Shown here one piece after another: positions 5,361 to 49,621 of a DNA stretch of 64,000 nucleotides (positions are counted from its first letter, which is position 1; every line of letters starts with the position of its first letter). The stretch lies in contig NZ_CP017704.1 of the NCBI RefSeq assembly GCF_002243645.1, forward strand, positions 907,501 through 971,500. Reading direction: 5' to 3'. The position numbers were made by a program, and so were the translations under genes. Below the pieces are notes generated by a model. That model was given only the letters and a program-made list of their open reading frames with translations. It was not told where the DNA came from and ran no database searches. The stretch is from Peribacillus simplex NBRC 15720 = DSM 1321 (GTDB taxonomy: Bacteria > Bacillota > Bacilli > Bacillales > DSM-1321).

Positions 5361-6125
5361 TTAAATCTTTTGATCTTGCATCGTGTTTCTTAATTTATAT
5401 ATCGCTTTCGAGTGAATTTGGGATATACGGGACGTAGATAGGCTCATCACTTGTCCGATTTCGGTTAATGTTAGTTCTTCTTTATAAAAAAGCTGTAAAA
5501 CCAACTGTTCTTTTTCATTAAGGGTTTCTATGACTTTGGCTAATTCCACATACAGTTCTTCCCTTAACACATATTCCTCAGGTAAATCCGCCTTTTCATC
5601 TTTAATATGAAAATTCGCGCTTTCTTTATCGTCCTCTTGGGGATTTTCATCCATTGATAGTACATTGGCAAAGAAATTCTCATTTAATGCAGCATATACT
5701 TCATCTTCCGGGATATTCAATTCAGCGGCAATCTCATTTGGCAAAAGGTTCCTCATGTATTGCTGCTCCAGCTTTTCTATTGCAGATTCAATTTTCTTGG
5801 CTTTATCTCTTGCACTCCGTGGAAGCCAATCCTCTTTTCTTAATCCATCTAAAATAGCACCACGAACTCTAAATGAAGCATATGTGTCAAACTTCAGGTC
5901 ACGCTTCGTATCAAAACGTTCCAGGGCATCGAATAACCCCATCATCCCTAAACTCCTTATATCATCCCGGCTCACATTTTTAGGAAGACTTACTGAAATA
6001 CGTTGAACATGATATGATACGAGTGGTATGTATTTCTTTACCAAAATGTCCCCGGCTAGCGGATCTCTGCAGTCCACCCAATTTTTCCAACATAACTGCT
6101 CTTCTTCGATGGTCAGATGAGACAT
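5361..6125 (-). CDS. sigD: Flagellar/motility sigma factor SigD (FliA)
   Basis: 254-residue sigma-28 family factor, the same length as B. subtilis SigD. It directs RNA polymerase to late flagellar, chemotaxis and autolysin genes. Region 2 is visible around DDIRSLGMMGLFDALERFD and FDTYASFRVRGAILDGLR, region 3 after WLPRSARDKAKKIE, and the region 4 helix-turn-helix near the C-terminus (LTEIGQVMSLSTSRISQIHS). The ATG at 6125 is chosen because AGGAGGAGG precedes it; an upstream in-frame extension of 37 codons is hydrophobic and unrelated. FlgM, its anti-sigma factor, is not in this window. Confidence 0.97.
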   Translation of the reverse strand: MSHLTIEEEQLCWKNWVDCRDPLAGDILVKKYIPLVSYHVQRISVSLPKNVSRDDIRSLGMMGLFDALERFDTKRDLKFDTYASFRVRGAILDGLRKEDWLPRSARDKAKKIESAIEKLEQQYMRNLLPNEIAAELNIPEDEVYAALNENFFANVLSMDENPQEDDKESANFHIKDEKADLPEEYVLREELYVELAKVIETLNEKEQLVLQLFYKEELTLTEIGQVMSLSTSRISQIHSKAIYKLRNTMQDQKI

Positions 6126-6251: not shown

Positions 6252-6755
6252 CTATATGTTTTTAGTCCCTTTTGTAACGGTCCGTATATTTAGCAAACAA
6301 TTATTTAAATTGAATTCAATTGTTCTTCCGCTATTCCCGCCAACATCTTCGGCAACGACTCTAATGCGCAAGTCAGATAACTCTTTCCGGACAGCTTCCA
6401 CATTCCGGGGTCCTATTCTCATTAAATCCCCTCCGGAGGCAAATTGAAACATTTGCGCTCCGCCAGCCAACTTCGCTTTTAGGAATTGCATTCTTGCGCC
6501 TTCTTTTACTAAAATCTGCACTAATTCCTTTATCGCCGTATCTGCAAATTTGGCAACGTTTATCTGTCCCGATTTAGCGAGTGAAGAGTCAGGCAGCATG
6601 ATATGTGCCAAACCTGCAATTTCTTTTTTTTTATCATAAATCACAACACCAACACACGACCCCAACCCGGTAGTACGAATCGTATAAGAAGGTTTTATTA
6701 TATTCATATCCGCTATTCCAACCTTAACAACCTGTACCTTTAACAATTCAGTCAC
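6252..6755 (-). CDS. cheD: Chemoreceptor glutamine deamidase CheD
   Basis: 167-residue CheD, which deamidates receptor glutamines and, bound to CheC, takes part in adaptation. The catalytic Cys34 (GLGSCVG) and His51 (GLAHIMLP) are present. The GTG at 6755 overlaps the cheC stop (GTGA), but AGGAG lies only one base before it. A TTG at 6746 has better spacing (about 10 bases) and may be the true start, giving 164 residues. It sits directly downstream of cheC, its protein partner. Confidence 0.95.
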   Translation of the reverse strand: MTELLKVQVVKVGIADMNIIKPSYTIRTTGLGSCVGVVIYDKKKEIAGLAHIMLPDSSLAKSGQINVAKFADTAIKELVQILVKEGARMQFLKAKLAGGAQMFQFASGGDLMRIGPRNVEAVRKELSDLRIRVVAEDVGGNSGRTIEFNLNNCLLNIRTVTKGTKNI

Positions 6756-7378
6756 ACTCCTAAAGCGGAAAAAATGATATCAAAAAATTCGGGATCAGGT
6801 AATAGAAAGAAATGACCATTAATGGAGTCAGCAAAAAGCTGGTCTTTTTCAAGTACAATATCAATGACTATGGCTGCGTCACTTACTTGAGATAATTCCA
6901 ATAATCCATAACTGATCGTTGCCCCTACCATATCGATGCTCAAGGATGGAACGGATGGATAGATATTCAATCGGGTGAAATCAGAAAGGGAAGAGAGATA
7001 GGATCCCGATAAAATATTCCCTAATTCCTGAAGGCAAGAGAGTGCCAATTCAGTATAGGGTACGGAATTTATCAAAAAGGACTCATCACCAATCATCTTA
7101 CGAATCAAGTATTCAGCTACAGGTAGCGAAAGGATAAAAAACATACTCCCTGAAGCATCACCTTCAATTCTAAGGAAAACGCTGGCAACGACGTGATCGG
7201 CCCCGCCAGCCATTTCCATCATTTCATCAAAGGAAACGATTCGGACATTAGGAACATTCATATCAATTTTCCTATTAAGGATGGTAGAAAGCGCAGTTGC
7301 TGCGTTCCCTGCACCTATATTACCGATTTCCTTCAAAATATCGAGTTGAAGAGGGTTGATTTTCTCGATGAACGACAT
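6752..7378 (-). CDS. cheC: CheY-P phosphatase CheC
   Basis: 208-residue CheC-family phosphatase that dephosphorylates CheY-P and binds CheD. Both active-site repeats are visible: D13-x3-E17-x2-N20 (DILKEIGN) followed by a GAGNAATALS helix, and a second one in the middle (CLQELGN...SGS). It starts 4 bases after cheW, with a ribosome-binding site (GAAGGA) that overlaps the cheW stop, and overlaps cheD at its end. Confidence 0.96.
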   Translation of the reverse strand: MSFIEKINPLQLDILKEIGNIGAGNAATALSTILNRKIDMNVPNVRIVSFDEMMEMAGGADHVVASVFLRIEGDASGSMFFILSLPVAEYLIRKMIGDESFLINSVPYTELALSCLQELGNILSGSYLSSLSDFTRLNIYPSVPSLSIDMVGATISYGLLELSQVSDAAIVIDIVLEKDQLFADSINGHFFLLPDPEFFDIIFSALGV

Positions 7379-7382
7379 ATGA

Positions 7383-7838
7383 TTATCCTTCTCTTAACAT
7401 ATTTTCAGTCATTTCTAGACTTAAAGCCTTCTCCAAATTAATTAGGACGAGCAGTCGCTTTTCAATTTTAGCCACTCCGCTAATGTATTCTGAAGCCAAA
7501 TGTCCCACAACTTCAGGCTGAGGTTCGATACTTTCCACTGGAATATCCAAAACATCATTGGCAGAGTCCACTATTAACCCAACTTCCATATCATCCAAAA
7601 TGACGATGATAATCCTTGTTGATTCATCGTATTCCACCTCTTCGAAACCAAAACGAACCCGTAAATCAATAATTGGAGTGATTACACCCCTTAAATTTAT
7701 GACTCCCTTAACAAATTTTACAGCCTTTGGAACTCTGGTAATATGCAGAAGCTTTTCGATACCACTGACCTTATCCACTGGAATTGCATATTCTTTATCC
7801 TTAATTTGAAATACGATTACTTTCATATCCTCCGACAT
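7383..7838 (-). CDS. cheW: Chemotaxis coupling protein CheW
   Basis: 151-residue CheW, an SH3-like scaffold linking CheA to the chemoreceptors. It has the conserved KVIVFQIKDKEYAIPVDKV start and the INLRGVITPIIDLR signature near residue 67. Two ATGs are possible (residues 1 and 5). The first has GGAGGGG five bases upstream and was chosen. About 100 bases separate it from cheA, with only a doubtful 19-codon frame between. Confidence 0.96.
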   Translation of the reverse strand: MSEDMKVIVFQIKDKEYAIPVDKVSGIEKLLHITRVPKAVKFVKGVINLRGVITPIIDLRVRFGFEEVEYDESTRIIIVILDDMEVGLIVDSANDVLDIPVESIEPQPEVVGHLASEYISGVAKIEKRLLVLINLEKALSLEMTENMLREG

Positions 7839-7944: not shown

Positions 7945-9987
7945 TCAATGAATCAATGTGTTGCAATCTATGATTAAAGCAACTTGACCATCACCAAGTA
8001 TCGTTGCCCCCGATACTGCAAATGCACTAGTTAAATAATTACCTAGTGATTTCAGAACGATTTCCAGCTGCCCGATAAATGAATCAACGACTAATCCTGC
8101 TAATTTATCGCCTTTTCTTACAATGACTACAGAGAGGGACTCTTCTTCTTCCTGACTGATAGGCACTTCAAATATATCTTTCAAGAACAGAAGCGGTAGA
8201 ACCCTCCCCCTGAAGTCAATAACTTGTTGATTATGGGCATTCATGATATCTGCTTTTTTTATGATTGCTGTTTCTATAATGGAGGAAAGCGGTATGGCAT
8301 ATTTTTCGTTTTGGATTGCAACCAGCATGACAGAAATAATGGACAATGTAAGCGGAAGCTGAATAAGGAAGATGGATCCTTCATTCTCTTTGGAATCGAT
8401 CGTGACAGATCCACCGAGGGACTCAATAGTATTTTTAACCACATCCAGCCCTACACCGCGTCCTGATACATCTGAAATGGTTTCCGCTGTTGAGAAACCA
8501 GAAGCGAATATCAGTTCATAGATTTGCTTATCCGTTAGGGTGGCGGCAGTTTCCTTAGTTAATATCCCATTGGATAGCGCCTTGTTCAAGACTCGATCTT
8601 TATTAATGCCTGCACCGTCATCCTCGATTTCAATGAAAACATGATTGCCGCTGTGATATGCTTTTAACAGGATTTTACCTTCTTCATTCTTTCCTTTCTC
8701 CAGACGTACTTCAGGTGTTTCAATTCCATGATCCATGGCGTTTCTTAATAAATGGACGAGAGGATCACCGATTTCATCAATGACTGTACGATCAAGTTCC
8801 GTTTCGGCACCGTTGATTTCCAAATTGACTTTCTTGTTTAAATCCCTTGCCAATTGACGAACCATTTTAGGAAAACGATTGAATACAGTTTCCACGGGCA
8901 CCATCCGCATATTCAATACGATTGTTTGTAAATCACTTGTTATACGGGACATTCTTTCTACTGTTTCATGCAATTCTTGATTATCCAAATCACTAGAAAT
9001 TTGGTCAAGTCTGCCTCTATCGATTACTAGTTCCTCGAATAAGTTCATTAATATATCAAGCCGCTCAATGTTCACCCGAATGGTCTTGCTTGATGGCGTC
9101 TTAACGGGTGCCTGTTTTTTCCTATCATCATTATCAGTTGGAATCAAGGCATTATTTGTCTCTTGTTCCGGAATTTCAGCAACTTTATCCTCTTTAGAAT
9201 TGGGTGCATGCCGCAAGCCTTCAAGATCAAGGGCATTTACAACAACTTGATCCACTTCTGAAACCTTCATGATTTTTTTCGTTATCTCTTCAACCGATTC
9301 TGTTGTTACCATCGTGACCGTAAATTGCTGATCGAATTGCTCTTCTTCCAAAAGTTCGACGGGTGGGTGTGACTTGATTACTTCACCTGACTTTTCAAGC
9401 ACCTCGAAAACCATAAACACCCGGGCAGCTTTTAAAAGACAGTCTTCACGCAACCCTATCGAAATTTCGTAGCTGTTGAAGCCTTGATCTTTGGACTGCT
9501 GAAGTACTGTCCACTCAAATTCATCGTACTCTCCCGCAGTCATTTCCTCCTTTTCAAGGACGGCAGAAGCTGCTGCAATCTCTGCAATGGTGGAAGAAAT
9601 GGGCGACTCCCCTTTTTCAATCATTTCCAGCTGATGGACAACTCCCTTCACATTTCTTTTTCCATCTCCACCTTCAGCAATGGACATGACCATCGCCTCT
9701 AAATCATCAACCGCTAAAAATATCACGTCAAACAATTCAGGCGAAAGGGCGATTTGACTGTTTCGGATCTCATCCAACACATTCTCCATTTTATGAGTTA
9801 AATTGGCTAGATCCTCATACCCCATAGTTGCCGACATCCCTTTTAAGGTATGGGCGGAACGAAAGATTTCGTTTACGATCGAGAGGTCTTCCGGGTTCTT
9901 TTCGAGTACCAGCAACTGTTCGCTGCACGTTTGAAGATGTTCTTTACTTTCTTCAATAAATACCTCTAAATACTGATTCATATCCAT
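7945..9987 (-). CDS. cheA: Chemotaxis histidine kinase CheA
   Basis: 680-residue chemotaxis kinase, full length for Bacilli. Domains in order: Hpt/P1 with phosphorylated His46 (RSAHTLKGM); P2 CheY-binding domain (about 160-265); a Lys/Asp-rich linker; P3 dimerisation (about 300-365); HATPase P4 with N box (NAMDHGIE), G1 (DDGAGI) and G2 (SGRGVGLDVV); and the C-terminal CheW-like P5 domain. GGAGGTG precedes the ATG. It phosphorylates CheY and normally also CheB, but the neighbouring cheB is disrupted here. Confidence 0.97.
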   Translation of the reverse strand: MDMNQYLEVFIEESKEHLQTCSEQLLVLEKNPEDLSIVNEIFRSAHTLKGMSATMGYEDLANLTHKMENVLDEIRNSQIALSPELFDVIFLAVDDLEAMVMSIAEGGDGKRNVKGVVHQLEMIEKGESPISSTIAEIAAASAVLEKEEMTAGEYDEFEWTVLQQSKDQGFNSYEISIGLREDCLLKAARVFMVFEVLEKSGEVIKSHPPVELLEEEQFDQQFTVTMVTTESVEEITKKIMKVSEVDQVVVNALDLEGLRHAPNSKEDKVAEIPEQETNNALIPTDNDDRKKQAPVKTPSSKTIRVNIERLDILMNLFEELVIDRGRLDQISSDLDNQELHETVERMSRITSDLQTIVLNMRMVPVETVFNRFPKMVRQLARDLNKKVNLEINGAETELDRTVIDEIGDPLVHLLRNAMDHGIETPEVRLEKGKNEEGKILLKAYHSGNHVFIEIEDDGAGINKDRVLNKALSNGILTKETAATLTDKQIYELIFASGFSTAETISDVSGRGVGLDVVKNTIESLGGSVTIDSKENEGSIFLIQLPLTLSIISVMLVAIQNEKYAIPLSSIIETAIIKKADIMNAHNQQVIDFRGRVLPLLFLKDIFEVPISQEEEESLSVVIVRKGDKLAGLVVDSFIGQLEIVLKSLGNYLTSAFAVSGATILGDGQVALIIDCNTLIH

Positions 9988-9993
9988 ACAATC

Positions 9994-11105
9994 TCACACC
10001 TCCACGTGATAACAATAGCTTATTATCGCTTTAGCTATTTTTTCTACATCCTCTATGCTATCTATTAACTTGGTATTGATTGCCGCCTTAGGCATACCAA
10101 AAACGATTGATGTCTCCTGTGATTCGGCTATCGCTTTTAATGGCCCATTTTGTTTAAGCTTGGTAAGCCCCATTGACCCGTCCATCCCCATCCCGGTCAT
10201 GATGACGGCTATTTTTGCAGAATCATTCATTTCACTTACCGATTCAAATAGCACATCAACCGACGGGCGATGTCCATTACGCAATTCGGATTGATCCAAA
10301 AGGATTGCCCAACTCATTCCGACTTTCCTCACTTTCAAGTGAAAACCTCCAGGTGCGATGTAGGCGACACCTTTTTGAATCAGTTCTCCCTCTTCAGCTT
10401 CCTTCACTTTAATCTTGCATAATGAATTCAGGCGTGTTGCCAAGGATTTTGTGAAACTGGGGGGCATATGCTGAACAATGAGTATGGGAGCATCAATTTC
10501 TTCCGGGAGTCCTGTCAAGACGGTCTGCAGAGCACTCGGGCCTCCTGTTGATGTACCGACGACTATTATTTTTTTGTGCCCATAGGACCATTTTTCTTTA
10601 TTTTTTTCGTTTTTTAACGATTATATTGAATCTATTTCACTATATTCTTTCCAAACGGATGCACTTCTTTCAATATTTATCGCATTTTTTTCTAGTTTGT
10701 GAACATTTGCCCTGCTGGCAGCCATAACTTTTTCATGGAGTTCTTTCTTTATTTTATGTAAATCCAATGAAATGGCACCCGAAGGTTTAGCCACAAAGTC
10801 AAAGGCTCCACTGTTCATGGCGGCAAATGTATTTTCCGTTCCTTTTTTCGATGTGCTTGATAACATGACTACAGCGGTTGGACATTCATTCATGATCCGG
10901 TTTAATGCTTCCAATCCGTCCATAATCGGCATTTCCACATCCAAAGTCACGACATCGGGTTTTAAAGCCTTTATTTTGTCTATGGCATCTCTTCCATTTC
11001 TGGCAGTCCGGATGACTTCTACCCTGCTATCTTCTCTAAAAACTCTGAAATCAACTTTCTCATAAACGCAGAATCGTCCACTATCAGCACTTTTACTTTA
11101 CCCAT
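9994..11105 (-). pseudogene. cheB: Disrupted cheB (receptor methylesterase), frameshift plus internal stop
   Basis: Homologous to the two-domain methylesterase/response regulator along its whole length, but unreadable. From the ATG at 11105 the frame encodes the receiver start (VLIVDDSAFMRKLISEFL) and ends at TAG 11021-11019 after 28 residues. Adding one base at the five-T run (plus 11038-11042) restores EDSRVEVIRTARNGRDAI...PDVVTLDVEMP. That frame then meets TAA at 10623-10621 in the interdomain linker, and continues in the same frame with the methylesterase domain (IIVVGTSTGGP, VQHMPP, TGMGMDG). The catalytic Ser, His and Asp are still encoded. The only initiation codon reachable in the second half (TTG, 10518) lies after the catalytic Ser. 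Flanking flhG and cheA are intact. Confidence 0.85.
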
Positions 11106-11115
11106 ATTAGGAGAC

Positions 11116-11982
11116 CTACTTTCCCAAAAAATATCTCTTCATATTTTGGAGGAAATGGCTTTTTTGCAAAGTCAATTCTTCACCAAATGAATGATTTGCA
11201 TATCTCGAAGCAATGTCCATAATGGCTTTGGATATATCGGCTTCAGAATCGAAAAGGAGAAAGGGCATTTGTTTTGTAACAGATTTGGGTACGCTTCTAT
11301 CATCTGGCAAGTACCCTAGGGCTACAGCTTCCATACCCAAAAATTTCACTAGTGCATTTTGGAGCCGCTTAATCGTTTCTTTGCCGTCCTTACTCGTGAA
11401 AACACGATTGCAAACTAGGAACAATGGAATCTCTTTATTTACTGAATGAATATATTTCATTGCGGAATATACATCCATGATAGAAGTAGGTTCAGGCGTC
11501 GTGATAACGACTAATTCATCCACACATAACATGAATTTCATGGAATCCTGAGTGATGCCTGCACCCATATCAAATAAGATATAATCGTAATTCTCCAACA
11601 ACAAACTGAATTCTTCATTAAAACGGGAATACTTATCTTCATCAAGTGAAAAGAGATTCGTCACCTCTGTTCCACCTGTAATGATTGAAATATTTCCCGG
11701 TCCTGCCATGATGATATCCTTCAAACTACAATCTTTTTCAAAAAAATCAATAATACTGCAGGGCGAGTGCTCCCCGATCAAAATATCAATATTCCCCATA
11801 CCGATATCCATGTCGAACAACAGTACTTTTTTGCCTCTTTGGGATAAGGCAATGGAAAAATTCAAAGAAAAGTTTGATTTTCCCACTCCACCTTTACCGC
11901 TTAAAACGGCAATCGTTTTGGCCATTGATTGATTTTGGAGGGCTTCCAATCTACTTCGTAAATTCTCAGCTTGATCTTTCAT
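11116..11982 (-). CDS. flhG: Flagellar number regulator FlhG (YlxH), MinD-like ATPase
   Basis: 288-residue MinD/ParA-type ATPase. The deviant Walker A (LSGKGGVGKSNFS) is near residue 30, followed by the LLFDMDIGMGN switch, and a C-terminal amphipathic region that could bind membrane. With FlhF it controls number and placement of flagella and assists C-ring assembly. Its ATG overlaps the last 17 bases of flhF, so coupling is likely; an own ribosome-binding site is poor. Met20 is an alternative start. Confidence 0.93.
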   Translation of the reverse strand: MKDQAENLRSRLEALQNQSMAKTIAVLSGKGGVGKSNFSLNFSIALSQRGKKVLLFDMDIGMGNIDILIGEHSPCSIIDFFEKDCSLKDIIMAGPGNISIITGGTEVTNLFSLDEDKYSRFNEEFSLLLENYDYILFDMGAGITQDSMKFMLCVDELVVITTPEPTSIMDVYSAMKYIHSVNKEIPLFLVCNRVFTSKDGKETIKRLQNALVKFLGMEAVALGYLPDDRSVPKSVTKQMPFLLFDSEADISKAIMDIASRYANHSFGEELTLQKSHFLQNMKRYFLGK

Positions 11983-18681: not shown

Positions 18682-19044
18682 TTAACTTAATGCTTTATTT
18701 ATGGCTTCCAATACCCTGTCTGCCTGGAATGGCTTCACGATAAAGTCTTTTGCACCAGCCTGGATCGCATCAATGACCATGGCTTGCTGCCCCATCGCTG
18801 AACACATAATGACCTTAGCTTGAGGATTCACCTTTTTTATTTCTTTTAAAGCTGTAATTCCATCCATTTCAGGCATGGTAATATCCATCGTTACAAGATC
18901 CGGATGCGTTTCTTTATATTTTTCCACCGCTTGCGCGCCATCTGCTGCTTCGCCGACAATTTCAAAACCGTTTTTAGAAAGGATATCCTTTATCATCATT
19001 CTCATAAATGCTGCATCGTCCACAATTAAAATTCTATTCGCCAT
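18682..19044 (-). CDS. cheY: Chemotaxis response regulator CheY
   Basis: 120-residue single-domain receiver. The acidic pocket D9-D10, phosphoacceptor D54 (VTMDITMP) and K104 (IVKPF) are all present. CheY-P binds FliM/FliY at the C-ring; in Bacillus it promotes counter-clockwise rotation. It sits between fliY and fliO, as in B. subtilis, rather than with the other che genes. Confidence 0.97.
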   Translation of the reverse strand: MANRILIVDDAAFMRMMIKDILSKNGFEIVGEAADGAQAVEKYKETHPDLVTMDITMPEMDGITALKEIKKVNPQAKVIMCSAMGQQAMVIDAIQAGAKDFIVKPFQADRVLEAINKALS

Positions 19045-49588: not shown

Positions 49589-49621
49589 CCTTACCACCCT
49601 TTTTGAAACATATCAACAATT

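Follow-up and report, generated by a model that had tools for sequence, protein, structure and literature searches.

The cheB gene in the window (the whole stretch of 64,000 nucleotides analysed here, from a soil Peribacillus) is very probably a recently inactivated pseudogene, lying in a flagellar/chemotaxis operon whose frames are otherwise open. The evidence for this reading includes the following: the gene carries three changes that are unseen in relatives, 13 of 14 relatives have it intact, and the genome contains a single match to the CheB methylesterase. A preliminary description of the locus, made from the sequence alone, had reported two lesions and raised the possibility that cheB is decaying. 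Both lesions are real and decay is now well supported, but the count was incomplete, since the native stop codon has been lost as well. The coordinates of the features are collected in Table 1.

The operon lies on the minus strand and is of the B. subtilis fla/che type (fliM, fliY, cheY, fliO, fliP, fliR, flhB, flhA, flhF, flhG, cheB, cheA, cheW, cheC, cheD, sigD). Families were tested by profile for nine pieces; for the remaining genes, we use the names that we presume from homology.

Table 1. Features and indels at the cheB locus and elsewhere in the window (window coordinates)
Feature	Position	Strand	Remarks
sigD	5361..6122	minus	open frame, family match
cheD	6252..6755	minus	domain intact; GTG start overlapping cheC, ATG in relatives
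cheC	6752..7378	minus	domains intact; last codons trimmed by private 8-base deletion
cheW	7383..7838	minus	open frame, family match
cheA	7945..9987	minus	open frame, all five domains
cheB remnant	9994..11105	minus	flanked by flhG and cheA; slot of the relatives' 365-codon cheB
Methylesterase domain	9994..10620	minus	208-codon open frame; no ATG, GTG or TTG upstream of the catalytic Ser codon (10551-10549)
Native cheB stop site	10009..10011	minus	now a Tyr codon; stop in 11 of 11 relatives
In-frame TAA in linker	10621..10623	minus	sense codon in all 14 relatives
Receiver remainder and first part of linker	10624..11018	minus	out of frame with the cheB start
Premature stop	11019..11021	minus	after 28 codons (frame translation)
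Junction of one-base deletion	11035..11036	minus	by comparison with all 14 relatives; two bases beyond the run of five T (11038-11042)
flhG (ylxH)	11116..11982	minus	open frame
cheY	18682..19044	minus	open frame, family match
3-base insertion between genes	5341		private; 20-kb alignment, six relatives
Eight-base deletion, cheC/cheD junction	6754		private; 20-kb alignment, six relatives; also at an ORF edge in the two-relative comparison
One-base deletion between cheA and cheW, intergenic	7853		private; 20-kb alignment, six relatives
One-base deletion in cheB	11036/11035		private; 20-kb alignment, six relatives
Indel at fliY end	19064		ORF edge, two-relative comparison
Indel at extended 5' end of an ORF	49593		ORF edge, two-relative comparison
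Indel at extended 5' end of an ORF	63974		ORF edge, two-relative comparison

The frame that opens at the cheB ATG (11105) closes after 28 residues, as the preliminary description had said, and the one-base deletion ends translation there. That description was right that a base is missing early in cheB but had placed the loss at the run of five T (11038-11042); in the alignment the gap falls between 11036 and 11035. The out-of-frame receiver piece still carries the TLDVEMP motif, which we take to hold the phospho-acceptor Asp of the receiver. An open frame at 10621-10950 matches PF00072 (E = 5e-10) over profile positions 47-103 of 111, so that the receiver piece, read from its GTG at 10950, does not include the domain's first half. 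The receiver frame runs into the TAA in the linker, and the methylesterase domain follows in the same frame, both as first described. The match to PF01339 is complete (positions 1-174 of 174, E = 9.2e-62), and GTSTGG, QHMPP and MTGMGMDG, presumably the motifs of the Ser, His and Asp triad, are all read in the 208-codon frame; in sequence, the domain has what the methylesterase part of a functional CheB requires. Loss of the native stop, which follows codon 365 in relatives, extends the frame by five codons to a TGA at 9996-9994. Compared with a B. subtilis-type CheB, the remnant occupies the same flhG-cheA slot and has the same two domains with the catalytic motifs still present. It differs in that the frame is broken twice and the native stop is gone; the continuous frame from receiver through linker to methylesterase that a functional CheB requires is missing, and one protein is not expressible by ordinary translation.

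The earlier claim that no usable start precedes the catalytic Ser also holds: no ATG, GTG or TTG occurs in the 24-codon stretch that begins at 10620 and ends with the Ser codon (10551). Together with the nonsense codon in the linker, this predicts that no methylesterase should be made. Programmed recoding, in which a frameshift and stop readthrough would give a full CheB, is scarcely credible: the receiver and methylesterase frames are otherwise open, but both sites are absent from all 14 relatives, in 13 of these no recoding is needed, and the deletion adjoins no run longer than five bases.

The preliminary description had proposed a comparison of cheB in related strains. An intact gene of 365 codons is found in 13 of the 14 relatives examined, and all 14 lack both the TAA and the deletion, so these are disabling lesions absent from close orthologues. 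The single exception, in genome G008 (L016), has its break at codon 142; that assembly is 87% complete, and its cheA is likewise in pieces. Of 327 places, the best 80 put Bacillus sp. strains, Peribacillus simplex and P. frigoritolerans nearest among named relatives, which makes the organism a Peribacillus.

Is the damage an artefact of sequencing or assembly, with cheB intact in the living strain? The evidence is an assembled sequence and one of the lesions is a single base, but we consider such an artefact improbable. A single gene holds two lesions of different kinds plus a lost stop, and the genome (G000) is one contig of 5.65 Mb, 100% complete with 0.23% contamination. The pattern of indels points the same way. 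In 20 kb aligned with six relatives, four indels are private to the window. Over nearly all 64 kb, the window differs from two relatives (95.5% and about 95.9% identity) by 58 and 52 indels; 17 are common to both comparisons, and 15 of these have a length not divisible by three. Checked against minus-strand ORFs of at least 40 codons, one of the 15 is the cheB deletion, ten fall outside all ORFs and four lie at ORF edges; we read the edge indels at 49593 and 63974 as sitting upstream of the real starts. Of the frame-breaking indels common to both comparisons, that in cheB is thus alone in falling within a gene body, which makes a sequencing error unlikely. The T run has the same length, five T, in the window and in all 14 relatives, and the missing base lies outside it, so the deletion is not an error of homopolymer length. 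We therefore reject the homopolymer sequencing error that the preliminary description had raised for one lesion and had itself called unlikely as the sole cause.

The substitutions in cheB bear on the age of the lesions. Changes private to the window number eight nonsynonymous (one of them the lost stop) and one synonymous. For 20 neighbouring genes the corresponding figures are 64:63 (Fisher p = 0.036), and five lineages with an intact cheB together give 46:40 (p = 0.07). One lineage with an intact cheB, L035, has a ratio of 12:3, as extreme as that of the window; L037 was left out of the substitution count, as the fla genes are missing at its locus. Because the private substitutions are few, the p-value against intact cheB is 0.07 and L035 stands at 12:3, relaxed selection on the window cheB is only suggested, and the lesions, judged from these substitutions, are young. 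The small number of private substitutions and the presence of the catalytic motifs count against the pseudogene reading, as do the other private changes in the window, i.e., the eight-base deletion at cheC/cheD and the one-base deletion between cheA and cheW.

The preliminary description had also proposed searching the genome for another CheB and for CheR and CheV. A profile search of the genome finds a single match to the CheB methylesterase, and a second CheB elsewhere is rejected on this count. There are two CheR-family matches, one of them in an open frame of 272 codons, and a CheV of 301 amino acids is encoded outside the operon (its receiver half was read by eye). The genome also has five receptors with open frames, and the frames of CheA, CheW, CheC, CheD, CheY, CheV and CheR are all open. 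At the cheC/cheD junction (6752-6755), the eight-base deletion, absent from six relatives, trims the end of cheC and gives cheD a GTG start in place of ATG; it could change the output of CheD.

With the cheR gene kept and cheB inactive, receptors should carry more methyl groups. B. subtilis is described as having three adaptation systems, namely methylation, CheV and CheC/CheD/CheY-P (PMC3513319), and its cheB deletion is reported to leave runs and tumbles while precise adaptation is lost (PMC340952). Since B. subtilis has these three systems and its runs and tumbles persist without cheB, a cheB-less cell of the B. subtilis type should still respond, only less exactly. Adaptation in the present organism would most likely rest on CheC/CheD with CheY-P and on CheV, all of them encoded in this genome. 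The first suggestion of CheC/CheD/CheV-type adaptation fits both the encoded genes and the B. subtilis systems, and it stands as an expectation by analogy.

Damage to cheB recurs in the genus. A whole cheA is found in 33 of 36 Peribacillus genomes, and in three of these 33 (G000, G004 and G005) cheB is not intact. The damage takes three forms: a frameshift with a nonsense codon in the window, an internal receiver deletion with a frameshift in P. butanolivorans (G004, L040), and absence of the gene in G005. The last has no CheB match and only about 120 bases from flhG to the cheA ATG, with cheW, cheC, cheD and sigD present. P. butanolivorans also has a short flhF (314 amino acids). Among the other three Peribacillus genomes, G006 keeps cheB with fla genes lost at this locus, G019 is without cheA and cheB, and G008 is fragmentary. 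In G006 (L116), the neighbouring large gene of the intact cheB is codY; cheA is cut to 158 amino acids, and the match to canonical CheR is fragmented.

In P. butanolivorans, the two halves of cheB appear to evolve differently. In codons common to all, N:S is 22:16 for the receiver versus 6:16 pooled from four relatives (p = 0.03), and 18:20 for the catalytic domain versus 23:35 pooled (p = 0.53); an in-frame ATG lies ahead of the methylesterase domain. Because the receiver changes fast and the catalytic domain does not, the methylesterase of P. butanolivorans may still be in use. A receiver-less CheB of 196-227 amino acids, with a usual start and in the flhG-cheA slot, occurs in at least ten genomes of family f41 (loci L122-L131; G242, G149, G304, G324, G197, G263, G343, G220, G399, G417); these ten were picked for short open frames among the CheB matches listed and do not represent a frequency. 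A further observation is the 366 amino acid CheB of G381, which has a strongly divergent receiver. The f41 and P. butanolivorans genes lend some colour to the idea that in the window, too, the methylesterase domain alone is still made, by an unusual start or re-initiation. We think this quite unlikely. Receiver and methylesterase are separated in the window as they are in f41 and in the F3 class of Campylobacterota, where receiver-less CheB is described (PMC9321776), but each of those ten f41 genes opens with a usual start codon ahead of the methylesterase, which the window lacks. Ahead of the Ser, its frame offers only two ATA codons (10569, 10566) in place of a usual start, and the earliest start listed for it, a TTG at 10518, lies past the Ser.

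In a sample of 397 genomes of the order, 349 have a CheB match and 359 have a CheA match. Comparing the lists by eye, we find 12 of the 359 genomes with CheA and no CheB methylesterase match (CheA was re-found in all 12) and two with CheB and no CheA (G249, G364); the totals agree (359 - 349 = 12 - 2). All 12 have a CheR-family match, though G065 and G107 have no more than a match of the weaker kind. G005 is the only one with cheW, cheC and cheD beside cheA. Four genomes (G245, G327, G326, G383; L145-L148) have flagellar operons with cheA, cheW and cheD and no match for cheB or cheC, and CheR-family genes are kept. In G065 and G107, cheW, cheC and cheD are all absent beside cheA, and the CheA of G065 is itself short. 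G106 and G166 have a cluster of the cheY-cheA-fliY type. The remaining three (G208, G360, G397) have cheA and cheW, with no flagellar genes recognised within 18 kb, except that G360 has a weak flhG-like match. The window resembles these CheA systems in keeping CheA and CheR without a working CheB; it differs in that CheC, CheD and CheW are kept and remnants of cheB are still visible.

Several other cheB genes in the order depart from the usual form. Among the matches listed, cheB is split into receiver and methylesterase by a linker frameshift in G211 (L133) and G169 (L134); the latter frameshift lies near a run of eight A, and slippage or assembly error is possible. Weak CheB matches in G205 (1.1e-5), G132 (1.9e-37), G378 (6.3e-45) and G364 (1.7e-51) are possibly further decayed copies. 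The notion that cheB is markedly more fragile than its neighbours is unsupported: it is short in two of 75 loci, compared with 0 to 2 for each neighbouring gene, in a sample drawn from 80 named loci all chosen for a CheB methylesterase (five under 20 kb were dropped, and loci with no match for a neighbouring gene were left uncounted for it).

It is conceivable, though we hold it rather doubtful, that Peribacillus and the order dismantle methylation-based adaptation in a repeated order, in which the first loss is that of CheB, or of its receiver before it, with CheR, CheC, CheD and CheV retained, and CheC is the next to be lost in other lineages. If this were true, the window would capture the process at its opening stage, in cells that steer with receptors to which methyl groups are added and from which none are removed.

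We found no report of a broken cheB in Peribacillus in the titles and abstract openings of the literature listed on cheB pseudogenes and Peribacillus. Systems without CheB are already known, and Wuichet et al., as relayed in PMC2829493, have argued that CheB and CheR may now and then be missing; the window adds one more case. The lesions are real and the cheB remnant is very probably a young pseudogene, one more loss of CheB and not a new system. It represents a fairly ordinary gene loss in a pathway with backup adaptation systems. At the same time, it provides a natural cheB mutant in which cheR, cheC, cheD and cheV are kept, so that the weight of the three Bacillus adaptation systems is testable in a wild strain, and sister species with an intact cheB are available for a side-by-side comparison.
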